The position numbers were made by a program, and so were the translations under genes. A stretch of DNA of 64,000 nt from Bradyrhizobium japonicum USDA 6 (lineage in GTDB: Bacteria > Pseudomonadota > Alphaproteobacteria > Rhizobiales > Xanthobacteraceae): positions 6,441,001 through 6,505,000 of the forward strand of contig NC_017249.1 of the NCBI RefSeq assembly GCF_000284375.1. The letters run 5' to 3'. Each line of letters begins with the position of its first letter. The first letter of the stretch is position 1. Positions 9,561-49,664 of the stretch are shown in pieces. The notes under the pieces were generated by a model. The model had not been told where the DNA came from and did no database searches. It saw only the letters and a program-made list of their open reading frames with translations.

Positions 9561-9606
9561 CTGCTGGAGCGAGCCCCGGAAGCCAGACCAGAGAATGGAG
9601 AGGCCC

Positions 9607-12077: not shown

Positions 12078-12084
12078 CAGCGGA

Positions 12085-21516: not shown

Positions 21517-22767
21517 ATGTTGAAATGCAGTGTGGGACTGATCGCGCTAAGCAGCCTTTTCCTTTCAGGCGCGGCAATCGCCCAGGAAAAGATCAAGGTC
21601 GGCGTCACGGCAACGCTGGAAGGCACCTACACGGTGCTCGGCGAGGACGGCATGCGCGGCCACCAGACGGCGCTCAATGTGCTTGGCAAGAAGGTCGGCG
21701 ACAAAGAGCTTGAATTCATCGTTGCTTCGACCGACGCGACGCCGGATTCCGCAGTGCGCGCCGTACGCAAGCTGATCGAGCAGGACAAGGTGCAGATCCT
21801 GTTGTCGCCGCTCTCCGGCGACGAGGGCATTGCGGTCAAGAACTTCGCCAAGACGCATCCGGAGCTGACTTTCATCAACGCCGCCTCCGGCGCGCAAGAA
21901 ACCACCTATGTCGATCCCGCTCCGAACTTCTTCCGCTACAACATGGACGGCGCGCAGTGGCAGGTGGGCCTCGGCAAATACGCCTATGAAACCAAGAAAT
22001 ATCGCAAGATCGCGACCGTCGGCGAGGACTATTCCTTCATCTACACCCAGGTGTTCGGCCTCGTGCTCGAATTCTGCGGCGCCGGCGGCCAGGTCACCAA
22101 CCGGCAATGGGTGCCGCTCGGCACCAAGGACTTTGCCTCCGTCATCGCGGCGCTGCCCGACGATGTCGATGCGATCTATCTCGGTCTCGGAGGTGCGGAT
22201 GCCGTCAACTTCCTGAACCAATACCAGCAGGCCGGCGGCAAGGCGCATCTGATGGGCGGCTCCATCATGATCGACCAGACCATCCTGTCCTCGAAAGGCA
22301 ACGCCAAGAATGCGCTGGTCGGCACCATCGCGGCGAGCGGCCAGGCTGACACCTGGGAGGATCCGGGCTGGCAGAAGTTCGTGAAGGCGTATCAGGACGC
22401 GTTTCCGCCCAACAAGCGCTTCCCGAGCCCGTCGCTTCTTGCGACAAACTATTACGGCTCGACCATGGCGCTGATCCTCGCGCTGCGCGAGGTCAATGGC
22501 GATCTTTCCAATAACCAGGCCAAGTACAAGGAGGCCCTGGCCAAGATCGAGATCGACGCACCGAACGGCAAGATCAAGCTTGACGCCAACCGCCAGGCGA
22601 TCGGCACCAACTTCGTCACCGAGGTCGTCGATGACGGCAAGGGCGCGCTGTTCAGCAAGGTTGTCAAGGTGATCCCGAACGTGAACCAGACGCTCGGTTA
22701 CGATCCGGCGGTGTTCGCCAAGATCGGACTGCCGAGCCGTACGGTCCCGGAATGTAAGAAGTACTGA
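21517..22767 (+). CDS. Liv-type (branched-chain amino acid family) ABC substrate-binding protein
   Basis: 416 residues from ATG 21517, directly after GAGGGAGG. The signal peptide is MLKCSVGLIALSSLFLSGAAIAQE. The mature protein fits Peripla_BP_6: KIKVGVTATLEGTYTVLGEDG at the start, ILLSPLSGDEGIAVKNFA in the hinge and DAIYLGLGGADAVNFLNQYQQAG. In rhizobia such proteins bind amino acids, but also aromatic acids, amides and urea. It heads the large co-directional cluster; its permeases and ATPases start 1.2 kb downstream, after the AraC gene. The ligand is unknown; the oxidative and hydrolytic genes downstream argue against a simple amino acid. Confidence 0.92.
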   Translation: MLKCSVGLIALSSLFLSGAAIAQEKIKVGVTATLEGTYTVLGEDGMRGHQTALNVLGKKVGDKELEFIVASTDATPDSAVRAVRKLIEQDKVQILLSPLSGDEGIAVKNFAKTHPELTFINAASGAQETTYVDPAPNFFRYNMDGAQWQVGLGKYAYETKKYRKIATVGEDYSFIYTQVFGLVLEFCGAGGQVTNRQWVPLGTKDFASVIAALPDDVDAIYLGLGGADAVNFLNQYQQAGGKAHLMGGSIMIDQTILSSKGNAKNALVGTIAASGQADTWEDPGWQKFVKAYQDAFPPNKRFPSPSLLATNYYGSTMALILALREVNGDLSNNQAKYKEALAKIEIDAPNGKIKLDANRQAIGTNFVTEVVDDGKGALFSKVVKVIPNVNQTLGYDPAVFAKIGLPSRTVPECKKY

Positions 22768-22903
22768 CGCATTCACCGGCGCTCCTTTTGCTTGCTCTCC
22801 GGCAGCCGGGAGCGATTTGCAGGCGCGATATCTTGTGCTCTTGCAATCTCGCCCCGGTTGTTGAACGCTGACTGAAAAGACAAGAACATTCGGGAGGGAA
22901 GGC

Positions 22904-23731
22904 ATGAGCCGGGCGCTTGCCGTCTTTCACGGCCGGTTCGGTCGCGCGACGGTCTATCAGTTGAACCGCCCTTTCAACGTGCACGCACATCGCGAAGGTC
23001 ATCTGATCTTCCATGTCGGCGGCCTGTCCGCATGCATCGACGTCTGTAACGGGCACTACGACCTTACGGAAAGCTCCATCGTTGCGGTCAATCCCTGGGA
23101 GCCCCACAATTTCCTGCCGTCCGATCTCGACGGTGGCGCGATCTTCTTCGTGCTCTACGTCAATCCGGAGTGGTTCGCGCCCGACGCACCCGGCGCCGAC
23201 CGCCTGCGTTTCGGCCGCACCCAGTTCAAGCGCACGGTCGCACTCGACAAGCACATCCGACGAACCGCAGCACTCGTGTGCGGCGCACCGTCACTCTCCA
23301 GCCTCGATGCCGAGCTGCGGCGGCTGATCGACATCTGCTACGACGAAAGTTGGCAGCAAGCCGAGATCGCGCGCGACGCGCGCACGGCCGGCGCCGTCAC
23401 CGACTTCCGCGTACGCAAATGCATCAAGCTGATGTCGGAAAGTCCGGGCGCCGAAATGGAGCTCGACACGATCGCGCGCGAATCCGGCCTGTCGCGACCG
23501 CATTTCTACCGGTTATTCCGCACCCAGACCGGCGTCACGCCACACCTCTACCTCAACACCCTGATCATGGAACAGGCGCTGGAAGCCCTTGTCGCCGGCG
23601 AAGCACCGATCGCCGACATCGGCTTCGACCTCGGCTTCTCCTCGCAAAGCGGCTTCACACGCTTCTTCACCGCCAATGTCGGGATGGCGCCGACCGATTA
23701 CCGCCGCGCCGCCAAGGTTTTACGGGCCTGA
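22904..23731 (+). CDS. AraC-family transcriptional regulator
   Basis: 275 residues from ATG 22904 with GGGAGGGAAGGC upstream. The N-terminal half is a cupin-like ligand domain (FNVHAHREGHLIFHVGG; NPWEPHNFLPS). The C-terminal half has two helix-turn-helix motifs: LDTIARESGLSRPHFYRLFRTQTG and IADIGFDLGFSSQSGFTRFFTANVG, ending in the usual P-x-D-Y-R. It sits between the binding-protein gene and the transporter genes, so it is the likely activator of the whole cluster in response to the imported compound. The 137 bases upstream could contain its own control site, but none is clear. Confidence 0.92.
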   Translation: MSRALAVFHGRFGRATVYQLNRPFNVHAHREGHLIFHVGGLSACIDVCNGHYDLTESSIVAVNPWEPHNFLPSDLDGGAIFFVLYVNPEWFAPDAPGADRLRFGRTQFKRTVALDKHIRRTAALVCGAPSLSSLDAELRRLIDICYDESWQQAEIARDARTAGAVTDFRVRKCIKLMSESPGAEMELDTIARESGLSRPHFYRLFRTQTGVTPHLYLNTLIMEQALEALVAGEAPIADIGFDLGFSSQSGFTRFFTANVGMAPTDYRRAAKVLRA

Positions 23732-23970
23732 CCGCGCGCGAAAAGATACTGACGATCAAACGCTCCCCTTGTGCCCTCGCTAAGATGGTCGGAACGCGAT
23801 CCCGAAAAGAGGATCGCAAGTCCGGGAGGACGCACGTCCATGGCGAGGTACGCAGCCTGCGCAAGGCTGTTCGACCAGCGTTCAAGGCATGAGGCAGGGC
23901 GAGGTCGAAGCGGCCTGATCGCGCCCTCTTCCCGCTTGCGGGGGCGCGAGGCGGGGATGAGGCAGTCGAC

Positions 23971-24981
23971 ATGACGCGCTTCGTCGAACGTCATCCGGCC
24001 TGGGCCCTGATCGTGATCATCGCGATCGCACTTGCATTGTGGCTGACCTTGGCGGTGTGGCCGCCCGGACTTGAAGAGGCGATCGGCCGCAAGCGGGTTT
24101 TCCTGAACGCCGTGTTCAACGGCATCACGCTCGGCGGCCTCTACTTCCTTGTCGCCAGCGGTTTCACCCTGATCTTCGGCCTGATGCGCAACGTCAACCT
24201 CGCGCACGGCTCGCTGTATTTGTTCGGCGGCTATGTCGGCTACGCCATCAGCGCCTCGACCGGCTCCTGGCTCCTCAGCTTCATCGTCGCATTCATCCTG
24301 ACGGCGCTGGTCGGCGTCCTGCTTCAGCTCATCGTCTTCCGCCGCATGGAGGGCCAGGACTTGCGGCAGACCATGGTGACGATCGGGCTTTCGATCGTTT
24401 TCGCCGACCTGATGCTGTGGGCTTGCGGCGGCGACTTCTATCAGATCCAGACGCCGAACTGGCTGATCGGCCCGATCGAGCTGCCGCTGATCACTGCGGT
24501 GAAATCCTCGGGCGAGCCGGTCTATCTCCGCTATCCCCTGGTCCGGCTGGTGATCTTCGCCGCGTCCGTCGTGATCGGCCTGGCGATGTGGCTCGCGCTC
24601 AACCGCACACGCATCGGCATGATCATCCGCGCCGGCGTCGACGATCGCGACATCCTGGCCGCAACTGGAGTGCGGATCCAGCTCGTCTTCGTGCTGGTCT
24701 TCGCGCTCGGTGCCGGGCTTGCTGGCATCGCCGGCGTCGTCGGCGGCACCTTCCAGTCGCTCTCGCCCGGCGAAGACATCCGCTTCCTGCTCGCCTCGCT
24801 CGTCGTCGTCATCGTCGGCGGCATGGGCTCGATCCCAGGTGCCGCGCTCGGTGCGCTCATCATCGGCCTCGCCGAACAGCTCGGTTCGGTCTACATCCCG
24901 ACCTACGCCATCGTCGTGACTTTCCTGATCATGGTGTTGGTACTAGCAGTCCGGCCGCAAGGCCTGTTGGCGAGGCGCTGA
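23971..24981 (+). CDS. LivH-type ABC transporter permease
   Basis: 336 residues from ATG 23971. About eight to nine membrane segments are visible (WALIVIIAIALALWLTL at the N terminus; LGGLYFLVASGFTLIFGLM; SFIVAFILTALVGVLL). The permease signature GLMRNVNLAHGSLYLFGGY is typical of LivH, and ALNRTRIGMIIRAGVDD is the usual coupling loop. The extra N-terminal segment (residues 1-40) is longer than in standard LivH. The stop is one base from the LivM start, so the genes form an operon. Confidence 0.92.
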   Translation: MTRFVERHPAWALIVIIAIALALWLTLAVWPPGLEEAIGRKRVFLNAVFNGITLGGLYFLVASGFTLIFGLMRNVNLAHGSLYLFGGYVGYAISASTGSWLLSFIVAFILTALVGVLLQLIVFRRMEGQDLRQTMVTIGLSIVFADLMLWACGGDFYQIQTPNWLIGPIELPLITAVKSSGEPVYLRYPLVRLVIFAASVVIGLAMWLALNRTRIGMIIRAGVDDRDILAATGVRIQLVFVLVFALGAGLAGIAGVVGGTFQSLSPGEDIRFLLASLVVVIVGGMGSIPGAALGALIIGLAEQLGSVYIPTYAIVVTFLIMVLVLAVRPQGLLARR

Positions 24982-24982
24982 G

Positions 24983-26092
24983 ATGTCGCTCGCCCACGAC
25001 GCCCGCGTCACCATTCGTCCCGCCGCAGCGGCGCAGCGCCCCAAATTGCGCGGATGGCCGGAGATCAACAATCCTGCAGCCTGGATCGTCGCGGCCATTC
25101 TCCTGATCATGCCGCTGATCGCCAACGGCTTCTTCCTGATCGAGATCTTTGCGACCACGCTGATCCTCGGCATCATGGCGCTGAGCCTGATGTTCCTCGC
25201 CGGCTACGGCGGCATGGTCAGCCTGATGCAGCTCACCATCGCAGGCTTCTCCGCCTATATGGTCGCCGTGTTCGGCGTCAGCGGCAACGCCAATATCAGC
25301 CTGGGTTGGCCGTGGTGGCTCGCAGTCCCGATGGCGCTCGCGCTCGCGACCCTGTTCGGCACGCTTGGCGGCGCGCTGGCGGTGCGCACCGAGGGCATCT
25401 ACACCATCATGATCACGCTCGCGATCGGCGCGGCTTTCTATTACTTCACCAACCAGAACTGGGCGATCTTCAACGGCCATACCGGCATCAACACTGTTGC
25501 AACGCCGCATTTCTGGGGCGTCAACTGGCGCGCCGACATTCCGTTCTATTACATCGTGCTCGCGGTCGCTGCGCTGTGCTACTTCGCCGTTGAATACATC
25601 TCCCGCGCACCATTCGGGCTGGCGCTGCAAGGTGTGCGCGACAATCCCCGCCGCATGGCGGCGCTCGGCTTCAACGTCAATGCGCACCGCGTCGCCGCCT
25701 ACGCCTTCGCGTCCTTTGTCGCGGCGCTGGCTGGCGTGCTCCAGGTCTGGAACTACCGGCAGATCTCGCCCGGTTCCGTGAGCGTCGGCGCCTGCATCGA
25801 TATCCTCATCATCGCCGTGGTCGGCGGCATCACGCGTCCCATCGGCCCCTTCATCGGTGCCCTGATCTTCGTGCTGCTACGCACCTTCGCGCTAGACTTC
25901 CTGGTCAAGCTCGGGCTCGACGGCAACCGCTTCCGGCTGCTGATCGGCCTCGGTTTCCTCGCTATCGTCTTCTGGTCCTCGGACGGCGTGATCGGGCTCT
26001 GGCAGAGCTGGCGACAGCGCCAGCGATCCGGCGCGGCCCGTTCAAGCGGACGTCTCGGCCGAGGATCTGGTCAAGGATCCGGTCATGGATAG
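24983..26092 (+). CDS. LivM-type ABC transporter permease
   Basis: 369 residues from ATG 24983, one base after the LivH stop. About nine membrane segments are visible (AAWIVAAILLIMPLIANGFFLIEIF; LMFLAGYGGMVSLMQLTIAGFSAY). The coupling loop reads GLALQGVRDNPRRMAALGFNV, characteristic of LivM. The C-terminal tail after IGLWQSW is short and basic. The gene overlaps the LivG start by 8 bases. It pairs with the LivH-type protein to form the membrane channel. Confidence 0.92.
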   Translation: MSLAHDARVTIRPAAAAQRPKLRGWPEINNPAAWIVAAILLIMPLIANGFFLIEIFATTLILGIMALSLMFLAGYGGMVSLMQLTIAGFSAYMVAVFGVSGNANISLGWPWWLAVPMALALATLFGTLGGALAVRTEGIYTIMITLAIGAAFYYFTNQNWAIFNGHTGINTVATPHFWGVNWRADIPFYYIVLAVAALCYFAVEYISRAPFGLALQGVRDNPRRMAALGFNVNAHRVAAYAFASFVAALAGVLQVWNYRQISPGSVSVGACIDILIIAVVGGITRPIGPFIGALIFVLLRTFALDFLVKLGLDGNRFRLLIGLGFLAIVFWSSDGVIGLWQSWRQRQRSGAARSSGRLGRGSGQGSGHG

Positions 26093-26867
26093 CGTCGCGC
26101 AACGCCTCTCGGCCGTCGGCGCCGGCGCGGCGCTGGAGCTTCGCGGCGTGACGCGCCTGTTCGGCGCGCTGGCCGCGCTCACCGACGTCACCATTACGGT
26201 GCGCCCCGGCGAGCGGCGCGCCGTGCTCGGCTCGAACGGTGCCGGAAAAACCACCCTGTTCAACTGCATCACCGGCGATTTCCCGCCCTCCTCCGGCACC
26301 ATCCGGTTCTTCGGCGAGGACGTCACCCACTTCCCGCCCTACGAGCGCATCCGCCGCGGCCTGCGCCGGACCTACCAGATCTCCGCGCTCTTTCCTGGTC
26401 TCACCGTCCAGGACAATGTCTACCTCGCCTGCCGCGGCGTCTCGCGCGGGCGCTTCTCCTTCCTGCGCCCCGGACAGAACGACGCGCTGATGAGCGCGGC
26501 CGACAATCTCGTGCAGGCCGTCCATCTCACAGGCGTGAAGGACCAGCGCGTCGCCGAGCTTGCGCATGGCCAGCAGCGCCAGCTCGAGATCGCATTGGCG
26601 CTCGCCGGAGCGCCGCGTTTCGTGTTGTTCGACGAGCCGGCCGCGGGCCTGTCTCCGACCGAGCGCGCCGAGCTGGTCGAGATCCTGACCTCGCTGCCGG
26701 CACATATCGGCTATATCATCATCGAGCACGACATGGACGTCGCGCTACGCGTCGTCGAGAGCGTCACGATGATGCACAACGGGCGCATCTTCAAGGAAGG
26801 CCTGCCGCAGGAGATCCAGTCCGATCCCGAGGTGCAGGAGCTTTACCTCGGAGGCGGTCATGAATGA
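26085..26867 (+). CDS. LivG-type ABC transporter ATP-binding protein
   Basis: 260 residues from ATG 26085, overlapping LivM. Walker A is [10 protein letters not shown] near residue 49, followed by the LivG-typical [21 protein letters not shown]-loop region. The signature is a modified [16 protein letters not shown] instead of LSGGQ, and Walker B is [13 protein letters not shown]. The H-switch is IIEHDMD. The relaxed signature (AHGQQ) is common in LivG proteins. It overlaps the fused LivF gene by 8 bases, indicating coupled translation of the two ATPases. Confidence 0.92.
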
Positions 26868-29076
26868 GGTCCGCCGCTCGGCCGCCGCCGCCCTCGAAGT
26901 CCGCGGCCTCGACGTCTACTACGGGCATTCGCATGCGCTGCAAGGCGTGGACCTGACGCTCGAAGCCGGCGTATTCTCGGTGGTCGGTCGCAACGGCATG
27001 GGCAAGACCACGCTGTGCAAGGCGATCATGGGGCTGGTGCCGGTCAGCGGCGGCTCGATCCGCGTTCGCGGCGACGACATCACCCGGCGGCCGCCCGCCT
27101 ACATAGCCCGGCTCGGCGTCGGCTACGTGCCGCAGGGCCGGCGGCTGTGGCGCTCGCTCAGCGTCGACGAGCATCTGCAGCTTGCCGCGGGCCTGCGGCG
27201 CGGGGCTTGGACGGTCGAGCGCATCTACGAGACCTTTCCGCGATTGGCCGAGCGCAAGGATCATGGCGGCGGCCAGCTCTCCGGCGGCGAGCAGCAGATG
27301 CTTGCGATCTCCCGCGCGCTGCTCACCAATCCACAGCTCCTGATCATGGACGAGCCGACCGAGGGGCTTGCGCCCGTCATCGTCGCCCAGGTCGAGGAGA
27401 TGCTGGTACGGCTTGGCGAGGATGGCGACATGTCCGTGCTCGTGATCGAGCAGAACATCGGTGTGGCCACGGCCGTCTCGCGCAACGTCGCGATCATGGT
27501 CAACGGTCGCATCAACCGCATCATCGATTCCGTGCGCCTTGCCGCGGACCGGGAGTTGCAGCAGCGCCTGCTCGGCGTCGGACTCCACGCCGAGCTCGAG
27601 CCCGCCGTCGACGTGCCGGCTGCAGGCACCGGGGCGAAGGCCGCACCGCAGCCGTCCCGTCCAGGCGGCCCGATCCGCGTCTACATCTCCAATCCGACGC
27701 CCCCCACCCGATGGTCACAGCCGGTCCCGATCGCCCGCATCGAGGCTGCCGCCCGCACGCTCTCGACACAGGTGGCGCGTCTCGACGAGACCGCCCGGCG
27801 CCGGCGCGAGCCGGTCGCGGCGCAAATGCAGGGACCCCCGGTCGTGCTCGTCGTCGGCACGCTCGACACCAAGGGCACGGAGCTTCGCTTCATCCGCGAC
27901 ATCATCGCCGGGAGCGGTCTGCGCACGCGACTGGTCGATGTCTCCACCAGCGGACGGCACGCAACCAGCGACATCTCCGCCCAGGAGATCGCCTTGAACC
28001 ATGGGCGCGGCGGATCGGCGGTGTTCGGACCCGACCGCGGCGCTGCCGTCACCGCGATGGCCGATGCCTTCGCCAGCTGGCTGCGACGCCAGAGCAATAT
28101 TGCCGGCGTGATTTCGGCGGGCGGCTCGGGCGCAGCGTCACTGGTCGCGCCGGGGATGCGGACCCTCCCCGTCGGGGTGCCCAAGCTGATCATCTCCTCC
28201 GTCGCCTCCGGCGACGTCGGGCCCTATGTCGGCCCCGCCGACATCACCATGATGTATTCGGTCACCGACGTGCAGGGCCTCAACTCGATCTCGCGTTCCG
28301 TGCTCGCCAATGGTGCCAATGCGCTGACCGGGATGGTCAGGGCGCGCCTAGATCAGCACGCGCGGAAGGATCGCGGCGACGGCGGATTGCCGTCGGTCGG
28401 CATCACCATGTTCGGCGTCACCACGCCGGCGGTGCAGAAGATCGCGGCCGATCTGCGCGAGGATTTCGAATGCCTCGTCTTCCACGCCACCGGCGTCGGC
28501 GGCCGCTCAATGGAGAAGCTCGTCGATTCCGGACAGATCGCCGGCGTCATCGATCTCACCACCACGGAAATCTGCGATCTCCTGATGGGTGGTGTATTCC
28601 CGGCGACCGACGACCGCTTCGGTGCGATCATCCGCAGCCGCCTACCCTATGTCGGCTCGGTGGGCGCGCTCGACATGGTGAATTTCGGCGCCCCGGACAC
28701 CATTCCGGAGCGCTACCGCGGCCGCAAATTCCACGTGCACAACCCGCAGGTCACCTTGATGCGGACCACGGCGGAGGAAAACGAACGCATGGGCCGCTGG
28801 ATCGCCGAGCGGCTCAACCAGATGGACGGCCCGGTGCGCTTCTTCCTGCCCGAGGGAGGCGTCTCCGCGCTCGACGCACGAGGACAGCCATTCTGGGATC
28901 CCGATGCCGATGCGGCGCTGTTCCGTGCGCTGGAGCGGAACGTGCGGCAGACCGCCAACCGTCAGCTCATCCGCGTCCCCAAGAACATCAACGATCCCGA
29001 GTTCGCCTCCACCATTGTCAGCGCGTTCCGGACCTTGTTCGGCCGCACCGGGGCGCGCCGGAGACTAGCGAGGTGA
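26860..29076 (+). CDS. LivF-type ABC ATPase fused to a Tm-1-like (UPF0261) domain
   Basis: 738 residues. Residues 1-247 are a complete LivF: Walker [11 protein letters not shown] near 42, signature [16 protein letters not shown] and Walker [15 protein letters not shown] Pro/Arg-rich linker of about 80 residues follows. Residues about 326-738 form a Tm-1-like domain: [67 protein letters not shown] and [17 protein letters not shown]. Tm-1 is a plant viral resistance protein; bacterial UPF0261 members have no settled function and often neighbour a PEP-hydrolase-like TIM barrel, as here. The reading frame is continuous with no stop at the junction, so the fusion is genuine in this sequence. Confidence 0.9.
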
Positions 29077-29079
29077 CCG

Positions 29080-29913
29080 ATGGCCCGGTTTGAACGCACA
29101 GAACTGTTGAAACGCTTCCGCGACATGGCAAAGCGCGGCGAGCCCATCATCGGCGGCGGCGCCGGCACCGGCCTGTCGGCCAAGTGCGAGGAAGCCGGTG
29201 GCGTCGATCTCATCGTCATCTACAATTCCGGCCGCTATCGCATGGCCGGCCGCGGCTCGCTTGCAGGATTGATGGCTTATGGCGACGCCAACGCCATCGT
29301 GCTGGAGATGGCCGGCGAAGTGCTGCCCGTCGTGACCAGGACGCCGGTGCTTGCTGGCGTAAATGGTACGGATCCGTTCCGCGACATGGACGTTTTCCTG
29401 GACCAGTTGAAGGCGCTCGGTTTCGCCGGCGTGCAGAACTTTCCGACCGTCGGCCTGATCGACGGAGTGTTCCGCGCCAATCTCGAAGAGACCGGCATGT
29501 CCTACGCGCTGGAGATCGACATGATCGCCAAGGCGCGCGAGAAGGACCTGCTGACGACGCCCTACGTCTTTACCGAGAAGGAAGCCGCCGCGATGGCGAT
29601 CGCGGGCGCGGATATCATCGTCTGTCACCTCGGCCTCACGACCGGAGGCACCATCGGCGCGCAGACCGCGCCCAAGCTCAAGGATTGCCCGGCGCGCATC
29701 GACACCTGGGCCTCCGCCGCGCTCAGCGTCAATCCGGACATTCTGGTGCTCGCGCACGGCGGACCGATCGCCGATCCGGACGACGCCGATTTCATCATGA
29801 AGAACACCCGCTACTGCCACGGCTTTTACGGCGCCTCCTCGATGGAGCGGCTGCCGGTCGAGCGGGCGCTGACGGATCAGGTGCGCAAATTCAAGGCGAT
29901 CGGCGCGCGATAA
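29080..29913 (+). CDS. PEP-hydrolase-like TIM-barrel protein (PF09370 type)
   Basis: 277 residues from ATG 29080, three bases after the fusion gene. Features: [41 protein letters not shown] near the N terminus, [39 protein letters not shown] and [15 protein letters not shown]. These match the TIM-barrel family described as phosphoenolpyruvate hydrolase-like, related to isocitrate lyase/PEP mutase barrels. The reaction is unproven for this group. Direct adjacency to a Tm-1-like domain recurs in bacteria and suggests that the two act together, perhaps on a carboxylic-acid intermediate or as a signalling pair. Confidence 0.85.
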
Positions 29914-29938
29914 CGCCGGAAGGTCGAGGGAGGGAAAT

Positions 29939-32851: not shown

Positions 32852-32860
32852 GGTCGCATC

Positions 32861-33298: not shown

Positions 33299-33303
33299 GC
33301 TCC

Positions 33304-33747: not shown

Positions 33748-33749
33748 CA

Positions 33750-34568: not shown

Positions 34569-34574
34569 CTCGTC

Positions 34575-35051: not shown

Positions 35052-35062
35052 AGGATTTTGTC

Positions 35063-36655: not shown

Positions 36656-37677
36656 TGACCCGGCATCGCGGACGCGGCATGGCGTCGATCAACTATCCCA
36701 TCGGCATGAATCTCGGCGGCGATCCCAGCCAGGCGTTGGTTCACTCCAACCCGAGCGGCAAGTTCACGGTGGCGCTGTCGTCGATCGACCTCGGCCAGGG
36801 CATGAAGTCGGTGACGCGGCAGATCTGCGCGGAGACACTGGGCGTTCCCGTCGAGGACGTCTATGTCGATACCGCGGATTCCGACACCGGTCCGCACTGC
36901 ATGGGCTCCTTCGCCTCGCGCGGCACCCATCGCGTCGGCAATGCGGTGATGGCCGCGGCGCGCGAGGCACGCGGCGTGATGATGGAGGCGGCCGCCGAGG
37001 AGCTCGAGGTCAACGCCGCCGATCTCGAAACCGACGGACGCGGCAACATCCACGTCAAGGGTGCGCCGCATCGCTCGATCTCGACCAAGGACGTCGCCAT
37101 CGCCGCCCAGTTCAAGCAGGGCAAGACCATCTCCGGCCGCGGCATATTCCTCGTGCCTCTGTCCAACGTCGACCCCGAAACCGGCGAGATGTCGCCTGCG
37201 ACCTGCTACGCCCATGCCTGTCTCGTGGCGGAGGTCGAGGTCGACGACGAGACCGGCGAAGTCGCGATGGTCCGCATGGACTCCGCCTATGAGCTCGGCC
37301 GCGCGCTCAATCCGCGCCTGGTCGAGCAGCAACTCGTCGGCGGCGCCTGGATGGGCATCAGCCACGCGCTCTACGAGACGACGGAGCCTCATTATCCCGA
37401 CCCCGTTCACGGCCCCCGCGACTTCGTCGAATATCTGATGCCCGGCCCGGGCGACATTTGCCCGCACGATATCGCCGTGCTGGAGCGCCCCGCGCCGGAC
37501 GGTCCGTTCGGCGCCAAGGGACCGGGCGAGATGTGCGCCAACCCCGTGCTGCCGGCTGTCGCGAATGCGATTTTCAACGCCGTCGGCGTGCGCATCGACG
37601 ATCTGCCGATTACGCCGGAAAAGGTGCTGCGCGCGATCAAGACCCAGGGCGGCGCGCGGCCACAGGCACGACGCTGA
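36655..37677 (+). CDS. Molybdopterin-binding large subunit of the hydroxylase, C-terminal part
   Basis: 340 residues. The ATG overlaps the previous stop (TGATG). It contains the second cofactor-binding half: SSIDLGQGMKSVTRQICAETLG, DTADSDTGPHCMGSFASRGTHRVGNAV, AHACLVAEVEVDDETGEV and GPFGAKGPGEMCANPV, where the Glu of GPGE corresponds to the catalytic Glu of this superfamily. Together the two genes equal one normal about 780-residue large subunit. Both halves look intact and conserved, so this seems a functional split rather than a broken gene. Confidence 0.92.
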   Translation: MTRHRGRGMASINYPIGMNLGGDPSQALVHSNPSGKFTVALSSIDLGQGMKSVTRQICAETLGVPVEDVYVDTADSDTGPHCMGSFASRGTHRVGNAVMAAAREARGVMMEAAAEELEVNAADLETDGRGNIHVKGAPHRSISTKDVAIAAQFKQGKTISGRGIFLVPLSNVDPETGEMSPATCYAHACLVAEVEVDDETGEVAMVRMDSAYELGRALNPRLVEQQLVGGAWMGISHALYETTEPHYPDPVHGPRDFVEYLMPGPGDICPHDIAVLERPAPDGPFGAKGPGEMCANPVLPAVANAIFNAVGVRIDDLPITPEKVLRAIKTQGGARPQARR

Positions 37678-37685
37678 GACTGGCC

Positions 37686-38567
37686 ATGGCAGTTCGCAGC
37701 AACATCGTCGGCATCGACAACCCCGAAGCGCTGGAGAAGGCGCTTCGGGCGGCCTATTACCTCGCCGATGAAGGGCTCGCGACCGCGGCCTATCTCGGCC
37801 TTGCCCTCGGCAAACCGCTCCTGCTCGAAGGCGCCCCCGGTGTCGGCAAGACCGAGGCCGCGAAAGCCATCGCCGCCGTCCTCGGCCGCCGCCTCATCCG
37901 CTTGCAATGCTATGAGGGCATCGACGCCTCGGCCGCGCTCTACGAGTGGAACTATCCACGCCAGATGCTCGCGATCCGCCAGGCCGGCGACGAGAGCATC
38001 GACATCTATGGCGAGACGTTTCTGATCGAGCGGCCGATGCTGGCGACGCTCCGCGCACCCGACTCCACCGTGCTGCTGATCGATGAAATCGATCGCGCCG
38101 ACCAGGAGTTTGAGGCGTTCCTGCTCGAATTTCTCTCGGACTTCCAGATTTCGATCCCCGAACGCGGCACAGTGCGCGCGGCCGAACGTCCCGTTGTCGT
38201 GCTGACCTCGAATCGGACGCGCGACCTGCACGAAGCCCTGCGCCGCCGCTGTGTCTATCACTGGATCGACTATCCCACCGAAGAGCGGGAGGCGCGTATC
38301 GTGATGCTGCGGGCCTCGAGCGTCGCCGAGGCGACCGCGCGCGCCGTCGTCGCGGCTGTCGGCAAATTGCGCCGCGAGCCGCTCAGCAAGGCACCGGGCA
38401 TCGCGGAAGCCGTCGACTGGGCCGAAGCGGCGACGCTGCTTCACAAGGGCGGTGCGCGCTGGCCCGACGCCTTCAAGCGCTCGATCGGCGTGGCGCTGAA
38501 GGACGAGGAAGACCTGCACTTCATCTCGCCCCGGCTCGACATCATGCTCGCGGAGGCAACGGCATGA
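37686..38567 (+). CDS. MoxR/CoxD-like AAA+ ATPase
   Basis: 293 residues from ATG 37686. Walker A is LLEGAPGVGKTEAAKAI near residue 53, Walker B TVLLIDEIDRADQEFEAFLLE, followed by sensor 1 VVVLTSNRTRDL and an arginine finger region (ALRRRC). The MoxR subgroup works with VWA proteins as chaperone machinery. In carbon monoxide dehydrogenase clusters CoxD, of this type, helps to mature the active site of the Mo enzyme. The position right after the Mo-hydroxylase subunits and before a VWA gene makes a similar maturation job likely. Confidence 0.93.
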   Translation: MAVRSNIVGIDNPEALEKALRAAYYLADEGLATAAYLGLALGKPLLLEGAPGVGKTEAAKAIAAVLGRRLIRLQCYEGIDASAALYEWNYPRQMLAIRQAGDESIDIYGETFLIERPMLATLRAPDSTVLLIDEIDRADQEFEAFLLEFLSDFQISIPERGTVRAAERPVVVLTSNRTRDLHEALRRRCVYHWIDYPTEEREARIVMLRASSVAEATARAVVAAVGKLRREPLSKAPGIAEAVDWAEAATLLHKGGARWPDAFKRSIGVALKDEEDLHFISPRLDIMLAEATA

Positions 38568-39685
38568 GCACCGAGCCGGAGCTTCCGCGCGCTGCCCGCA
38601 TTTTCGTCTCCTTCGTCGCGCTGCTACGCGCCAACGGCTTCGCCGTCGCGCCCGAGCAGACCACCTCCTATCTCGCCGCGATCGAGCTGCTCGGGCCGCG
38701 CGACCTCAACGACATCAGGCAATCGGCGCGGGCCACGCTCGCCCCGCCGCCCGAGCGCCGCACCACCTTCGACCGGCTGTTCGACCTGCACTTCCGCGGC
38801 AGCGAAGCCATCGAACATGTCGATGACGGCGAAGACGACGAGACGGTCCGGCTCCAGGAAGAGGGCAGCGGCGAACAGGAACCCCTGTTCTCCGACGATG
38901 CCAACGAATCGGGCCTCACTGCGACGCGCACCGAGGCACTGGTCGAGCGCCGCTTCGCCCAGCTCTCCACCACCGACGCGCTCCGCCGCCTGGCGCGCGA
39001 GGCCTCCCGGCGCCTGCCGCAGCGTCGCGGCCACCGGCGCATGCGTGCCCGCCGCGGACCGTTTGCCGACCTTCGCCGGACCTTGCGGGACAGCGTGCGG
39101 AGCGACGGCGAGATCCTGCGGCTCGGGCACCTGAAGCGGCGCCAGCGCCGGCGAAAACTCCTGCTACTGATCGACGTCTCCGGCTCGATGAAGACGCGCA
39201 CCGAGGAGAACATGAAGCTGGCGCATACGCTGGTACAGGCCGCGCCCAACATCGAGGTCTTCACCTTCGGCACGCGGCTGACCCGCGTCACCCGCCCGTT
39301 GCGTCTCAAGCGTCGCGAGCAGGCGCTGAGCGCGGCGGCGCACCTCGTCAGCGACTGGGATGGCGGCACCCGCATCGGCGACGCGCTGCAAGCCTTCCTC
39401 GCGGTGCCGCGGTTCGGCGGTTACGCGCGAGGCGCGGCCGTCATCGTCGTGTCGGACGGGCTGGAGCGCGGCGAACCCGACGCGCTGCGCGACGCCGTCG
39501 CAAAGCTGTCGCGGCGCGCCTGGCGCGTGAGCTGGCTGACGCCGCTCGCGACGGGCCCCGACTTCCGCCCGCAGACCGAGGCGCTGGTGGCCATCGAGCG
39601 TTTCGTCGATGATCTCGTGGATGGCGGTTCAAGCGCGTCGATTGTCGCGCACATTCTGACGTTGGGACGGAGGAGAGCTGCGTGA
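38564..39685 (+). CDS. VWA-domain protein, CoxE-like
   Basis: 373 residues from ATG 38564, overlapping the MoxR gene by four bases. The N-terminal part is helical and rich in Arg/Glu (AARIFVSFVALLRANGFAVAPEQT); residues about 200-370 form a von Willebrand A domain with a MIDAS metal site: LLLIDVSGSMKT (DxSxS), GGTRIGDAL (Thr) and VIVVSDGLERGEPD (Asp). CoxE-family proteins partner a MoxR ATPase as here. It overlaps the next amidohydrolase gene by four bases (GTGA), so translation is coupled. Confidence 0.92.
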   Translation: MSTEPELPRAARIFVSFVALLRANGFAVAPEQTTSYLAAIELLGPRDLNDIRQSARATLAPPPERRTTFDRLFDLHFRGSEAIEHVDDGEDDETVRLQEEGSGEQEPLFSDDANESGLTATRTEALVERRFAQLSTTDALRRLAREASRRLPQRRGHRRMRARRGPFADLRRTLRDSVRSDGEILRLGHLKRRQRRRKLLLLIDVSGSMKTRTEENMKLAHTLVQAAPNIEVFTFGTRLTRVTRPLRLKRREQALSAAAHLVSDWDGGTRIGDALQAFLAVPRFGGYARGAAVIVVSDGLERGEPDALRDAVAKLSRRAWRVSWLTPLATGPDFRPQTEALVAIERFVDDLVDGGSSASIVAHILTLGRRRAA

Positions 39686-40566
39686 GCGACATTGTCGACG
39701 GCCATCATCACATCTGGCGGCAGGCCGACCTGCCCTGGCTGACCGGTCCGATGCAGCCGCGCATCTTTGGACCCTACGAGCCGATCCGTCGCGATTATCC
39801 GATCCGGGAATACCTCGACGACCTCAAGGGCACCGGCGTCACCCGTTCGGTCTACGTCCAGACCAACTGGGCCAACGACCGTTTCGAGGACGAAGCCGCC
39901 TGGGTCCAACAGACCGCCGACGAGCACGGCTGGCCGCATGCCATCGTCGCCTACGCCGACTTCGCCGTCGACGATGTGCGCCCGCAACTCGATCGCCTGA
40001 AGCGCTATCCGCTCGTGCGCGGCGTGCGCATGCAGCTGCACTGGCACGACAATCCGCTCTATCGTTTCGCGGCCAAGCCCGATCTCTGCGTCGATCCCAT
40101 GGTCCGCCGCAACATCGCGCACCTGGCCGACTACGGGTGGAGCTTTGACCTCCAGGTCTTCACGCCGCAGATGCCGGTTGCCGCGCAGCTCGCCGAGTCC
40201 TGCCCGAGGGTGACCTTCATCCTCCAGCATGCCGGTATGCTCGAGGACCTCTCGCCGGCGGGCCGGGCCGCCTGGCGCGCCGGGATGGCCCGGCTTTCGA
40301 CCTGTCCGAACGTGGTCTCAAAGCTCTCGGGGCTCGGCACCTTCATCCATCGCAACGATCCCGCGCACATCGCGGCCGTCCTTACCGATACCGTCGCGAT
40401 TTTCGGCGCGGAGCGCTGCCTGTTCGGTTCCAATTTTCCGATCGAGAAATTGTGGACCAGCTATCGGGAGCTCGTCGACGCCTTTCGTGCGGCGGCCGCG
40501 AAGCTGACGACCCAGCAGCAGGACGCAATTTTCGGGACGACGGCAACGCGCGTCTATCGGCTTTGA
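39682..40566 (+). CDS. Amidohydrolase-family TIM-barrel hydrolase
   Basis: 294 residues from GTG 39682. It has the HxH motif VDGHHHIWR at the N terminus, VRGVRMQLHWHD, a later metal or catalytic His in ILQHAGM and the C-terminal GSNFPIEKLW segment, in the place of the usual GSDxPH. This resembles the PF04909 group that includes lactone hydrolases such as 2-pyrone-4,6-dicarboxylate lactonase and amidohydrolase-like decarboxylases. In this operon it would act on a ring-opened or lactone intermediate produced after hydroxylation; that is inference. Confidence 0.88.
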   Translation: MSDIVDGHHHIWRQADLPWLTGPMQPRIFGPYEPIRRDYPIREYLDDLKGTGVTRSVYVQTNWANDRFEDEAAWVQQTADEHGWPHAIVAYADFAVDDVRPQLDRLKRYPLVRGVRMQLHWHDNPLYRFAAKPDLCVDPMVRRNIAHLADYGWSFDLQVFTPQMPVAAQLAESCPRVTFILQHAGMLEDLSPAGRAAWRAGMARLSTCPNVVSKLSGLGTFIHRNDPAHIAAVLTDTVAIFGAERCLFGSNFPIEKLWTSYRELVDAFRAAAAKLTTQQQDAIFGTTATRVYRL

Positions 40567-40596
40567 CAGACAAGAACGGAACAGGGAGGGAAACGA

Positions 40597-41445
40597 ATGG
40601 CGCTGGAGATCAAGATCCTGGACTATGGCGATATCGAGCTGGAATCGAGCTTTCTGGTTCTCGGCCGCGACTGCGGCCGCACCCGCCGCGTCCTCACCCT
40701 CGGCTTTCTGATCCTCGGCGGCAAATATCCGGTCGTGGTCGATACCGGTTACCGCTCCAACCAGATCATGGAAACGCTGGGGATGCGCGGCCTGCAATAC
40801 CACGAGAACATGATCGAGAACCAGCTCGCCCGCCACGGCGTACGCATGGGCGACGTCCGCTTCGTCTGCCACACCCATCTGCACATCGACCACGCCGGCA
40901 AGGACGATCTGTTTCCGATGAACACGACCGTCGTCCTCAACCGGAAAGAACTCGAATATTCCGTCTCCGGCTTGATGCATCCGCAGTATCCGGCGCCCGA
41001 CATCAAGCATCTCATCGACCGACTGCACACCAAGAGTGCGCTGCGCTTCCTCGACCTCGAGATCACAGGTCCTATCGAGCTGATGCCCGGCGTCTATTGC
41101 GATGCCGCCAACGCCCACACCGAGGGCTCCATGAACATCATCGTCGAGACCGCCGACGGCATTGCCACCATCTGTGGAGACGTGATCTACGATTTCAACG
41201 ACCAGATCGTCACGCCCTTCCACGAGATTCACGACTGGGAGCCGCGGACGACCGGCAACCACGGCACCAGCAAGCGGGCGGAGAAGGCGTCGATCAAGAA
41301 GCTGCTGAGCAATTCGCGCTATCTGCTGCCGGTGCACGACAGGCCGGCCAAGATCGAGGGCGGCATGGTCGTCGGCCGTCTGCACGACCAGGTCCCCGGC
41401 CCGATCGTGCAGTCGCTGCCCGCGCGCAACTGGTTCCCTGCCTGA
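40597..41445 (+). CDS. Metallo-beta-lactamase-fold hydrolase, N-acyl homoserine lactonase-like
   Basis: 282 residues from ATG 40597, after GGGAGGG. The dinuclear zinc motif HxHxDH is complete (CHTHLHIDHAGKDDLFP near residue 91), with later His (ANAHTEGSMNI), Asp (CGDVIYDFND) and a final His (LLPVHDRPAKI). This set defines the AiiA-like lactonase family. A lactone-opening function fits the catabolic cluster as well as, or better than, quorum-signal cleavage, because it is between other hydrolase genes. No signal peptide; cytosolic. Confidence 0.87.
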   Translation: MALEIKILDYGDIELESSFLVLGRDCGRTRRVLTLGFLILGGKYPVVVDTGYRSNQIMETLGMRGLQYHENMIENQLARHGVRMGDVRFVCHTHLHIDHAGKDDLFPMNTTVVLNRKELEYSVSGLMHPQYPAPDIKHLIDRLHTKSALRFLDLEITGPIELMPGVYCDAANAHTEGSMNIIVETADGIATICGDVIYDFNDQIVTPFHEIHDWEPRTTGNHGTSKRAEKASIKKLLSNSRYLLPVHDRPAKIEGGMVVGRLHDQVPGPIVQSLPARNWFPA

Positions 41446-41467
41446 CGTGAGCTGAGGATATCGACCG

Positions 41468-43042
41468 ATGACACACGTCACCCTGCGCTCCGAATTCGAG
41501 ACCCTGATCGACCCCTACGCGCCGGTCGCGCAGGTCGGCACCGGTTTCGACTTCACGGAAGGACCGATCTGGCATCCGGTCGATCATTATCTCCTGTTCT
41601 CGGATATGCCCGGCGACGTACGGCGGCGCTGGGATGCGCGGCGCGGCGGCGCGGAGGTCAAGCGCCCGTCGAACAAATGCAACGGCATGACCTATGATGC
41701 CGAGCTCAATCTGATCGTCTGCGAGCACGCGACCTCGTCGCTGATCCGTGAGCGGCCGGACGGGCGGCGCGAGGTGCTGGCCTCGCACTTCCAGGGACAG
41801 GAGCTCAACAGCCCCAACGACGTCTGCGTGCACTCCTCCGGTGCCATCTATTTCTCCGATCCCTGGTATGGCCGCATGCCGGTCTATGGTGTCGAGCGGC
41901 CGCGCCAGCTCGGCTTCCAGGGCGTCTATCGCGTCATGCCCGGCGGCGAGCCCAAGCTCGTGGTGGAGCGCAATTTGTTCGACCAGCCGAACGGGCTGTG
42001 CTTCTCGCCCGACGAGAAGCTGCTCTATGTCAACGACACCGTGCAGGCGCTGATCCGCGTATTCGACGTCAACGGCGACGGCTCGCTGTCGAACGCGCGC
42101 GTGTTCGCGAGCGGCATCCGCTCCGAGCTGGAGCCGGGCCTGCCCGACGGCATGAAGTGCGACCAGCATGGCAATGTCTGGGTCACCGCGCCCGGTGGCG
42201 TCTGGGTCTATTCACCGCGCGGCGAGCTGCTCGGGAAAGTCCGCGTGCCCGAGCTCGTCGCCAACCTCGCCTGGGGTGGCCCGGATTTCCGCACGCTCTA
42301 TTTGACGTCGACGCATTCGGTCTATGCCATCCCGACCAAGGCCGGGCCGCGTCATGAGCCCTATATGAGCGGCAAACGCGGCAATGGCGGCGCAAGCGCC
42401 GGTCCCGCGGCTGCAGCGCCCATTCTCGCCGACGGCGAGATGCGGCTCGATCCGAGCCGCTGCGCCATGATCATCCAGGATCTTCAGAACGACGTCATCA
42501 TGGATGGCGGCGCGTTCGCCGAGTCAGGCGCACCGGGTCATGCGAAGCAACAGCATGTGGTCGAGAACGTCCGGCGCTTGGCGGAGACAGCTCGCGCGCG
42601 CGGCGTCGCCATCATCCATGTCTGGTTCGTGGTCGAGCCCGGCGCGCCCGGCGTGACGCTGAACGCACCGCTGTTCGAGGGTCTCGTCGACAGCAAGGCG
42701 ATGGTGCGCGGCGGCTGGGGCGCCGCCCCGGTCTCCGGCCTCGAGCCGCGGCCCGGCGATTTCGTCGTCGAGAAGATGCGGATGAGCGCCTGGGAAGGCA
42801 CCCGGCTGGAGACGATCCTGAAAGCCACTGGCCGCGACATGATCATCAACACCGGCGCATGGACCAACATGTCGGTCGAGCACACCGCGCGCACCGGCGC
42901 CGACAAGGGCTATTTCATGATCGTGCCGGAAGATTGCTGCTCGACCATGAATGCCGACTGGCACTCCGCCTCGATCAACTTTGCCATGCAGAACGTCGCC
43001 GTCGTCACCCGGGCGGATGCCGTCATCAGAGCGCTGGGATGA
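41468..43042 (+). CDS. SMP-30/gluconolactonase domain fused to an isochorismatase-like domain with Cys replaced by Ser
   Basis: 524 residues. Residues 1-305 are an SMP-30/gluconolactonase beta propeller: GFDFTEGPIWHP (metal Glu), NKCNGMTYD (Asn), SPNDVCVHSSG and PDGMKCDQHGNVWV (Asp). After an Ala/Gly linker, residues about 325-524 are an isochorismatase-like domain with MIIQDLQND (Asp) and VVEKMRMSAW (Lys). The motif that normally ends N-x-C-V reads WTNMSVEHTARTGADKG, so the catalytic Cys is Ser. Hydrolytic amidase activity is therefore questionable, unless Ser substitutes. A lactonase plus amidase pair in one protein fits stepwise opening of a cyclic intermediate. Confidence 0.9.
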   Translation: MTHVTLRSEFETLIDPYAPVAQVGTGFDFTEGPIWHPVDHYLLFSDMPGDVRRRWDARRGGAEVKRPSNKCNGMTYDAELNLIVCEHATSSLIRERPDGRREVLASHFQGQELNSPNDVCVHSSGAIYFSDPWYGRMPVYGVERPRQLGFQGVYRVMPGGEPKLVVERNLFDQPNGLCFSPDEKLLYVNDTVQALIRVFDVNGDGSLSNARVFASGIRSELEPGLPDGMKCDQHGNVWVTAPGGVWVYSPRGELLGKVRVPELVANLAWGGPDFRTLYLTSTHSVYAIPTKAGPRHEPYMSGKRGNGGASAGPAAAAPILADGEMRLDPSRCAMIIQDLQNDVIMDGGAFAESGAPGHAKQQHVVENVRRLAETARARGVAIIHVWFVVEPGAPGVTLNAPLFEGLVDSKAMVRGGWGAAPVSGLEPRPGDFVVEKMRMSAWEGTRLETILKATGRDMIINTGAWTNMSVEHTARTGADKGYFMIVPEDCCSTMNADWHSASINFAMQNVAVVTRADAVIRALG

Positions 43043-43672
43043 GTGGTGGCAAAGCTTCTGCACCTCTCTTGCTCGCCCCGTGCCGACTCCGAGTCGAGCG
43101 CCGGCGCGCGCGTCTTTCTTGACGGGTTTCGGCGGGCCCGTCCGGACTGGGATATCGACGTCGTGGATCTCTGGCGCGAGCGGCTGCCGGAATTTGCAGG
43201 TCCCATCGTCGAGGCCAAATATGCGCGCATGAAGGCGCAGCCGTTCAACGACGCGCAGCGCGACAGCTTTGCCGAGGCCGAGCGGATGGCGCTGCGGTTT
43301 TCACTGGCCGATCGGGTGCTGATCTCGACGCCGATGTGGAACTTCAGCATTCCCTACAAGCTCAAACAATGGTTCGACGTCATCGTCCAGCCCGGGCTCA
43401 CCTTTCGGTTCGACCCCTCCCTGGGATATCTCCCGCTGCTGAAGGACCGGCCAACCACGGTGATTCTCGCCAGTGGCAGCGATTTCGCCACCGGAATGAA
43501 CCGCGGGCGCATCGACATGGCAACGCCTTACCTGCGGGAAATTTTGCGCTTTATCGGCATCAGCAATGTCCGTTTCGTGCCGATCGGGCCAACCACCGGA
43601 CCGCAACAGCCCATCGAGGCTGCCCGCGAAAGAGCCCATCTGCAGCTCGCCGCAATGGCAGCGAACTTCTGA
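43043..43672 (+). CDS. FMN-dependent NADH-azoreductase-like flavoprotein
   Basis: 209 residues from GTG 43043; a second GTG at 43046 is possible. Flavodoxin-like fold with an FMN phosphate loop (CSPRADSESSAGARVFLDGF) and the AzoR motif TPMWNFSIPYKLKQWFDVIVQPGLTFRF. The family reduces azo bonds and quinones with NADH. It is the last gene of the + strand cluster, abutting the previous stop. Quinone reduction would match an aromatic or quinonoid intermediate in the pathway. Confidence 0.88.
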   Translation: MVAKLLHLSCSPRADSESSAGARVFLDGFRRARPDWDIDVVDLWRERLPEFAGPIVEAKYARMKAQPFNDAQRDSFAEAERMALRFSLADRVLISTPMWNFSIPYKLKQWFDVIVQPGLTFRFDPSLGYLPLLKDRPTTVILASGSDFATGMNRGRIDMATPYLREILRFIGISNVRFVPIGPTTGPQQPIEAARERAHLQLAAMAANF

Positions 43673-43744
43673 TGCACTGTTGAGGACGCTGCGGCACTTC
43701 GCGACATCTATCGAAGCAAGCTGCGCATCACCTGCGAACGCGAC

Positions 43745-45435: not shown

Positions 45436-45445
45436 GGTCATTCCC

Positions 45446-46543: not shown

Positions 46544-46565
46544 TGTGATCTCCGTGAGGTATCGT

Positions 46566-48348: not shown

Positions 48349-48350
48349 CG

Positions 48351-49610: not shown

Positions 49611-49664
49611 CACATTCCTCCCAACCGGCTCTTATTCTTTGGCTGCAATCCTGCCTTCGATTTT

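Follow-up and report, generated by a model that had tools for sequence, protein, structure and literature searches.

What might a bacterium do with twenty adjacent genes that combine a Liv-type importer, a long flotillin, a molybdenum (Mo) hydroxylase and several hydrolase-like proteins? The question is raised by a module at 21517-43672 on the forward strand of a 64,000-nucleotide (nt) stretch of the Bradyrhizobium japonicum USDA 6 genome (contig NC_017249.1), hereafter the window, and it joins three others: the role of the Tm-1/UPF0261-PEPh protein pair, the organisation of enzymes by flotillin, and the substrate of a widespread Mo hydroxylase. An earlier note, made from the sequence alone, had proposed that the module degrades a (hetero)aromatic or lactone-forming compound at a membrane scaffold. 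We give a probability of about one half to the reading that the 20 genes form one catabolic supraoperon, metabolon-like and dedicated to the uptake and degradation of a compound. That the module is one conserved, co-regulated unit joining uptake, Mo-dependent oxidation and hydrolase-type genes was supported, and this part of the proposal stands; the substrate class, the catabolic role and the scaffolding by flotillin are what we infer beyond it. Its families are known but their combination is new; the module is widely conserved and, to judge from the literature searches, uncharacterised.

Pfam and NCBIfam profile searches of the gene products recovered every family named in the earlier note, at the expected coordinates and on one strand, and bore out its picture of about 20 tightly packed genes: among the 18 genes from LivH (starting at 23971) to the azoreductase (ending at 43672), each junction overlapped or left at most 30 nt. 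Upstream of these stand the gene of a periplasmic substrate-binding protein (SBP, 21517-22767; PF13458, 161.9 bits), with a ribosome-binding-site-like sequence, a start codon and a signal-peptide-like start, and that of an AraC-family regulator (22904-23731; PF12833, 80 bits). The larger gaps between SBP and AraC (136 nt) and between AraC and LivH (239 nt) leave room for additional promoters. The module proteins were 95-100% identical to those of the Bradyrhizobium sp. Arg816 and B. barranii loci (L004, L077).

Gene order was the first line of evidence for a single unit. Among 80 loci chosen by similarity to the phosphoenolpyruvate (PEP)-hydrolase-like protein (PEPh), all of them Bradyrhizobium-like, the order SBP, AraC, LivHMG, LivF fused to a UPF0261 domain, PEPh, flotillin, two SRPBCC proteins, the FAD and FeS subunits of the Mo hydroxylase, the two parts of its Mo-binding subunit (MoL1 and MoL2), CoxD and CoxE was kept in 80 of 80, as far as each locus reached; the 10-kb flanks ended in the first part of the amidohydrolase gene AmdH2, and 11 of the 80 were shorter than 20.8 kb. 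One of these loci (L005, contig JAUEPE010000001) is labelled Frankia sp. RB7; its module is Bradyrhizobium-like, with a PEPh 96% identical, and the label is probably wrong. Across the order (Rhizobiales), 49 of 297 genomes held a MoL2 orthologue at no less than 64% identity and the next matches reached at most 39%, a gap that bounds the MoL2 family sharply. At an E-value of 1e-70, MoL2 was matched in 7/337 genomes class-wide and 10/299 phylum-wide, the genome of origin being counted in each.

Regions from other genera were fetched in steps (21, then 12 more with five plasmid records to give 38, later that of genome G905 and two places in G100); gene calls in them came from a crude GC-based script, and conclusions rest on tblastn. 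The flotillin-linked form was found in 28 fetched regions outside Bradyrhizobium. The 19-gene set from SBP to the SMP-30/gluconolactonase (SGL)-isochorismatase fusion was complete and in the same order in 13 of the 28 (G113, G101, G019, G037, G070, G098, G040, G013, G036, G021, G426, G609 and G905), spanning nine families, two outside the order. Two more (G206, G226) had the complete set with SBP relocated to the far end of the module, and SBP was likewise relocated in G064, where no AraC gene was seen. The Yoonia region (Rhodobacterales) was complete apart from SBP, absent from the fetched stretch, and five regions were cut by region or contig ends (G181, G443, G024, G038, G114). The search for a conserved neighbourhood suggested by the earlier note thus came out in favour of its proposal, with order kept in all Bradyrhizobium-type loci as far as they reached, and in other families. 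Co-occurrence pointed the same way: of the 31 genomes in the order whose best match to the fusion reached 62% or above, 30 also held MoL2 at 75% or more; the remaining one (G078) is 76% complete, and its match, confined to residues 285-734, may be no fusion. In a set of 19 genomes the protein distances of six module genes were correlated (r 0.43-0.81, values that no more than 5 of 999 permutations reached), as expected for joint inheritance of the parts; shared species history would give the same.

Published expression data from a related species were the second line. A UniProt protein 89% identical to the LivF-UPF0261 fusion bears the B. diazoefficiens USDA110 name bll3382. Counting outward from it, and taking five anchors, the equivalents are presumably bll3387 (SBP), bll3386 (AraC), bll3377 (FAD subunit, coxM), bll3376 (FeS subunit, coxS) and bll3369 (SGL-isochorismatase fusion). 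In PMC6759348, product names for bll3386, bll3377, bll3376 and bll3369 agreed with the window, and the labels of bll3383-3385 (permease, ATPase, ATPase) did not match the window order (ATPase, permease, permease); bll3387 is labelled merely "unknown protein" in PMC6201568. In a phaR mutant, bll3369-bll3384 fall together under the label "polyketide synthesis" (PMC6201568), and in a delta-nasT strain under denitrification bll3383-3386, bll3369, bll3376 and bll3377 rise 2.3-5.4-fold, bll3386 being also cited as induced in symbiotic cells (PMC6759348). These data indicate co-regulation, not co-transcription, and the break-up into unrelated transcription units that the earlier note had named as fatal to its proposal was not seen in the parts of the two papers covered. 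There, the equivalents are described only as "CO dehydrogenase", "polyketide synthesis" and "LIV transport", with product labels such as gluconolactonase, and neither paper, in those parts, treats the cluster as a catabolic unit (PMC6201568, PMC6759348). The earlier remark that no described system has this exact set held as well, since no paper found in the literature searches presents it as a catabolic system: those on UPF0261, on Tm-1-like/PEPh and on flotillin in connection with Mo or Bradyrhizobium returned no functional study of the cluster, and the one on Shinella zoogloeoides/Teo12 no substrate lead. The 12-mer TGCGCCGCAACA, listed for bll3387 in Table 3 of PMC6201568, also lies at 21352-21363 (forward strand), 165 nt 5' of the SBP start. 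It matches 11 of 12 consensus positions of the PhaR-like site and is the sole such site in 21078-21516, with 33 such sites window-wide on both strands; the exact 12-mer stood upstream in just 18 of the 80 Bradyrhizobium-type loci, so no weight is placed on it. Essentially the same 19-20 genes are kept together across many alphaproteobacterial families, nodule symbionts included, and their equivalents in one species respond to loss of PhaR and of NasT.

The oxidation step is represented by a member of the xanthine-oxidase family of Mo hydroxylases. It comprises an FAD subunit (33750-34568; PF00941, PF03450), a subunit with two [2Fe-2S] clusters and the conserved Cys set (34575-35051; PF00111, PF01799) and a Mo-binding subunit divided between two genes, MoL1 (MoCoBD_1; 35063-36655; PF01315, PF02738) and MoL2 (MoCoBD_2; 36655-37677; PF20256, 204.6 bits), which carries the Glu of the GxGE motif. 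This catalytic-type Glu292 was kept throughout a 45-row alignment and aligns with the Glu of 3hrd_B. Wherever both halves were matched, in 39 of 39 orthologous regions, they were separate, which rules out a sequencing error or frameshifted gene. Genes for a CoxD-like MoxR AAA+ ATPase (37686-38567; PF07728) and a CoxE-like VWA protein (38564-39685; PF05762, 156.8 bits) follow. The closest solved Mo enzyme by sequence was nicotinate dehydrogenase (large subunit 3hrd_A, 203.9 bits with MoL1; 3hrd_B, 164.3 bits with MoL2), presumably from Eubacterium barkeri, whose Mo subunit is likewise divided into large and medium proteins; unlike it, the module has CoxD/CoxE-like genes and a MoL1 of 530 rather than 425 residues, the tail accounting for about 100, and the scores are just 204 and 164 bits. 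The clustering of FAD, FeS, Mo-subunit, CoxD and CoxE genes, and the coxS/coxM annotation of the USDA110 equivalents, recall the cox clusters of aerobic CO dehydrogenase, from which the module differs by the split Mo subunit and by its importer, flotillin and hydrolases. Form I CO dehydrogenase was ruled out: MoL1 has TPATAMRGFG in place of the active-site loop AYRCSFR, the Cys signature of that enzyme. NCBIfam models of xanthine dehydrogenase/4-hydroxybenzoyl-CoA reductase, which span both halves, scored 279.6 with MoL1 (cut-off 780) and 207.9 with MoL2 (994.55). Some relatives showed further interruptions: 1.0-1.7 kb between the MoL1 and MoL2 matches in family f18 (L098, L096, L123, L145, L179), an extra open reading frame in that gap of 116-120 aa in G206 and G226 and of about 330 aa in G245 and G100, and a MoL1 broken into two overlapping frames in Sinorhizobium sp. 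BG8 (L126).

Uptake is represented by LivH/UrtB-like (23971-24981) and LivM/UrtC-like (24983-26092) permeases, both PF02653, a LivG/UrtD-like ATPase (26085-26867; PF00005, PF12399) and a LivF/UrtE-like ATPase (26860-29076; PF00005). The earlier note had listed a Tm-1-like/PEP-hydrolase-like pair; both members are present, with the refinement that the Tm-1-like one is the C-terminal half of LivF (738 aa; ABC_tran 27-167, UPF0261 328-726) and PEPh, a TIM-barrel protein, has a separate gene (29080-29913). The Tm-1-like domain belongs to UPF0261 (PF06792, 197.7 bits; PF23189, 312.7 bits; cut-offs 27), the fusion passes NCBIfam model NF002673 (596.6 bits, cut-off 520) and it matched the Tm-1 structure 3wry at 332.8 bits. 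PEPh scored 431.7 bits with PF09370 (gathering score 33.8) and 405.6 with 2p10. To our knowledge, the UPF0261-PEPh pair has no established biochemical function, and the plasmid neighbours of PEPh in other genomes indicated no single substrate. The two halves are adjacent in the module as in tomato Tm-1 and Tm-1-like proteins (3wry, 2p10); in the module, UPF0261 is joined to an ABC ATPase and PEPh is encoded separately, in contrast to the two-domain protein described in PMC5028733.

The flotillin (29939-32851; 970 aa; PF01145, 67 bits; PF15975, 131.5 bits) has an N-terminal hydrophobic anchor, an SPFH domain, a long charged, coiled-coil-like region and a Flot domain. It scored 23.1 against the NCBIfam FloT equivalog cut-off of 700, a sequence search of the PDB at E 0.001 returned no match to it, and no DNA-level tandem repeats were found in its gene. 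Two SRPBCC proteins follow (32861-33298, PF10604, 104.6 bits; 33304-33747, GTG start, PF10604, 65.5 bits). The presence of flotillin went along with a longer MoL1: counted from the match start, MoL1 had 522-632 aa when flotillin-linked and 440-458 aa in clean flotillin-less cases. The linked tail adds about 65-190 residues, a variable Pro-rich stretch and then a conserved C-terminus of the RFSS(V/I)xGxRRR type (RFSSVFGTRRR in the window, codons at 36620-36652). Of 99 flotillin-linked MoL1 proteins, 73 came from Bradyrhizobium-type loci; the strict motif ended 91 of the 99, and the other eight (G037, G040, G181, G036, G443, Yoonia, L005, L008) also ended in -RRR, so that this ending was found in 99/99; L049, which runs off its contig, was excluded. 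In the flotillin-less group the strict motif was found in none of 13 rows, 11 of them clean comparisons; the remaining two were G114, whose contig starts within the flotillin gene and which is truly linked and ends in -RRR, and Sinorhizobium BG8, with its broken frame. The C-terminal peptide is therefore a candidate docking signal, and descent explains the tail equally well. In a tree of 43 MoL1 sequences, linked and unlinked forms separated across one branch with support 1.0 (this tree and that of the fusions were single FastTree runs), so one change in a common ancestor would explain why tail and flotillin go together no less well than a functional link.

Two parts of the module also occurred separately. 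The Mo core (FAD, FeS, L1, L2, CoxD, CoxE and AmdH2, in some cases joined by SRPBCC or EthD) has neither importer nor flotillin close by in G105, G261, G247, G015, G087, Sinorhizobium BG8 and the actinobacterium Nonomuraea, and just the four Mo genes were seen in G120, G490 and G582. On a plasmid of the haloarchaeon Salinigranum rubrum (L124) the four Mo genes are followed by genes for a cyclase-family protein and then an SRPBCC protein, so that the linkage of SRPBCC to this split Mo hydroxylase extends to archaea. Conversely, a second clade (B) of LivF-UPF0261 fusions was found in G105, G209, G092, G050, G131, G087, G085, G062, G324 and Variovorax VAI-C. Clade B was 53-62% identical to the window fusion and the Mo-linked clade A outside Bradyrhizobium about 62-68%; these ranges touch, and a tree of 41 fusions split the two clades with support 0.997. 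As in the window, clade B keeps LivH-LivM-SBP-LivG-LivF/UPF0261-(PEPh)-flotillin-SRPBCC-SRPBCC together, with no PEPh seen in G105 and G209, but it differs by having no adjacent Mo hydroxylase and a shorter flotillin (532-744 aa, against about 871-1165 aa in clade A). An FAH match lay upstream in 7 of the 10 clade-B loci and, by annotation, in Variovorax; G062 and G324 differed. G092 added an alpha/beta hydrolase and an Amidohydro_1 protein by Pfam, and G092, G085 and Variovorax an SRPBCC-MDR dehydrogenase fusion. In Thermomicrobium roseum, from another phylum, a Mo hydroxylase was found together with an importer, PEPh, FAH, a cyclase and a UPF0261 protein that is not fused. Since the cassette is tied to two enzyme sets and the Mo core stands alone elsewhere, the importer, Tm-1-like domain, PEPh, flotillin and SRPBCC proteins look like a portable chassis that can carry a second enzyme set.

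The four hydrolase domains of the earlier note are all present. Two of them lack a residue with a catalytic role in related proteins; in these two, hydrolytic activity should not be taken for granted. AmdH2 (39682-40566; PF04909, 175.1 bits), whose best PDB match was 4dlf, named just Amidohydrolase 2, has Asn251 in place of the Asp in the GSDWP of 4dlf, and Asn in 24 of 24 aligned rows. The isochorismatase-like domain, fused to the SMP-30 domain (41468-43042; PF08450, PF00857), keeps Asp and Lys and has Ser469 at the position of the catalytic Cys, conserved in a 22-row alignment and aligned with a Cys in 8bkd but with a Ser in 8bll. Cysteine amidohydrolases of the RutB/isochorismatase type use an Asp-Lys-Cys triad with a nucleophilic Cys, a type to which this domain, with its Ser, does not conform; in AmdH2 relatives the substituted Asp is likewise catalytic. 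The metallo-beta-lactamase-fold, lactonase-like protein (MBL, 40597-41445; PF00753, 39.7 bits) has the HxHxDH metal motif as HTHLHIDHAG, conserved in a 20-row alignment. The last gene encodes an NAD(P)H:FMN azoreductase-like protein (43043-43672; PF02525, 135.4 bits). All 6 of the further Bradyrhizobium genomes examined contain it, and the 38 fetched non-Bradyrhizobium regions gave no match; it was seen in Bradyrhizobium only.

Under the preferred reading of a dedicated uptake-and-degradation system, SBP and LivHMGF would import a small polar compound, for which an N- or O-heterocycle or a lactone-forming acid is the likeliest candidate, and the Tm-1-like domain carried covalently by LivF would place the Tm-1/PEP-hydrolase pair at the importer's cytosolic face. 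The Mo hydroxylase, matured by CoxD/CoxE, may then hydroxylate the substrate, and opening the resulting ring(s) may be the task of the metallo-lactonase and the SMP-30 lactonase, possibly helped by the amidohydrolase. Products might drain to C4 acids, an end point suggested by genes in the clusters of other genomes: an iron-type alcohol dehydrogenase (Fe-ADH) gene, which 9 of 21 regions carry in the interval from SBP to AraC, and an aldehyde dehydrogenase (ALDH) gene in G037, G040 and Yoonia. The Fe-ADH of G037, the only member run on Pfam/NCBIfam, narrowly passed the 4-hydroxybutyrate dehydrogenase model (504.5, cut-off 500). The long flotillin would act as a membrane platform to which, or to the adjacent membrane, the MoL1 C-terminal peptide would hold the Mo enzyme. 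Gene content, conservation, the published co-regulation of the equivalents, the joint occurrence of tail and flotillin and the substituted residues are observed; substrate class, order of steps, docking and channelling in this scheme are what we infer. A bolder form is possible and considered doubtful: an import-coupled metabolon in which the transporter, with its ATPase-Tm-1 fusion, hands the substrate over to the oxidase at a flotillin platform. The Mo hydroxylase would be docked on the lengthened flotillin through its C-terminal peptide, RFSS(V/I)xGxRRR-COOH or a similar sequence, and the cassette would be a reusable chassis for different catabolic sets. If so, a bacterial flotillin would have a specific enzyme as its client, and Tm-1 proteins of plants, fungi and bacteria would be placed in a metabolic context; the MoL1 peptide makes the scaffold idea testable.

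Several observations weigh against the preferred reading. In G277, G157 and G245 (the last also cut) the module had no PEPh, and in G277, G454 and Shinella no MBL; in G100 it is split in two, with about 180 kb of one contig between the pieces, and G216, one of nine Bradyrhizobium listed in the order-wide sample, had no MoL2 orthologue. The module may thus work dispersed or without some of its parts. The Asp of AmdH2 and the Cys of the isochorismatase-like domain are absent, as are Fe-ADH and ALDH from the window. The association of tail and flotillin is confounded by descent, which leaves the earlier membrane-scaffold idea with correlative support from flotillin linkage and the MoL1 tail. Finally, flotillin-less Mo cores adjoin aldo/keto reductase, EthD and sugar-type ABC genes (G247, G105), company that fits a sugar-like substrate as well.

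The strongest rival, to which we give a minor share of belief, is accordingly the oxidation of sugars or sugar acids, with the Mo enzyme as an aldose/aldehyde dehydrogenase (glyceraldehyde oxidoreductase-like) and the lactonase-like proteins opening aldonolactones. The sole NCBIfam match of AmdH2 was L-fucono-1,5-lactonase (110.9, cut-off 400), the top one of the FAD subunit was glyceraldehyde dehydrogenase beta (117, cut-off 350), and the SDR-FAH-SDR genes added in Yoonia include an FAH resembling 2,4-didehydro-3-deoxy-L-rhamnonate hydrolase (412, cut-off 500); all these scores lie under the cut-offs. Reduced Mo cores stand beside aldo/keto reductase (G247, G015) and EthD (G247, G087), with sugar-type ABC genes near (G247, G105), and UPF0261-PEPh-SRPBCC accompanies sugar ABC importers in Bosea, Qingshengfaniella and Terrarubrum. 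However, the module's own importer is of the Liv/Urt type, the Mo halves are nearest nicotinate dehydrogenase by sequence, and an isochorismatase-like domain would be unusual in a sugar pathway.

A role in scavenging lactone signals (acyl-homoserine lactones (AHL), gamma-butyrolactone and similar) appears rather improbable. The model would be blcABC (attKLM), the gamma-butyrolactone operon of Agrobacterium, and the resemblance lies in the Fe-ADH, passing the 4-hydroxybutyrate dehydrogenase model, and the ALDH that relatives of the module add to a cluster with a lactonase-like MBL gene. MBL is AiiA-like with the HxHxDH set, and Variovorax VAI-C, an AHL-degrading strain, carries a clade-B cassette. 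The window, by contrast, has neither Fe-ADH nor ALDH, MBL fell under the NCBIfam cut-offs for AHL lactonases (AiiA 50.8 against 375; AiiA/AttM-type 39.4 against 390) and is missing in some genomes, and lactone hydrolysis needs no Mo hydroxylase.

That flotillin and Tm-1/PEPh are mere passengers of a functional unit of importer, Mo hydroxylase and hydrolases seems less probable again. The Mo core does stand without them in several genomes, but the cassette keeps its inner order with two different enzyme sets, the Mo core is present in 30 of 31 genomes with a clade-A-like fusion, and the MoL1 tail is confined to the flotillin-linked form. The synthesis of a polyketide or other secondary metabolite, as labelled in the phaR study, is very improbable and was rejected on domain content, since the Pfam matches of the 20 products include no ketosynthase, acyltransferase or carrier domain and the transporter has a binding protein and is hence an importer; we think that the label goes back to the SRPBCC genes, which Pfam names "Polyketide cyclase".

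Scans for other signals added little. No sigma-70-type promoter was found in 21000-40999 (2.1 in shuffles) or 40000-46000 (0.7 in shuffles), and terminator-like sites were near shuffle level (10 against 10.1 and 5 against 3.0), so both scans were uninformative; Rfam and tRNA scans gave no matches. Around the module, genes at 11-17104 encode asparagine-synthase-like, Wzz-like, AMP-binding/PP-binding/thioesterase and HlyD/ABC-exporter proteins, a possible exported lipopeptide or exopolysaccharide cluster. Convergent with the module, on the reverse strand at 43745-49613, lie genes for a LacI-family regulator, ThuA, Gfo/Idh, two sugar-type ABC permeases and a binding protein; ThuA and Gfo/Idh also adjoin UPF0261-PEPh-SRPBCC in Bosea (L151). 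Further on, at 56325-63936 (reverse strand), an NMT1-type ABC importer, FAH, a cobalamin-independent methionine-synthase-like protein, a polysaccharide deacetylase, a GntR regulator and a metallo-beta-lactamase are encoded together and may form another uptake/degradation cluster.

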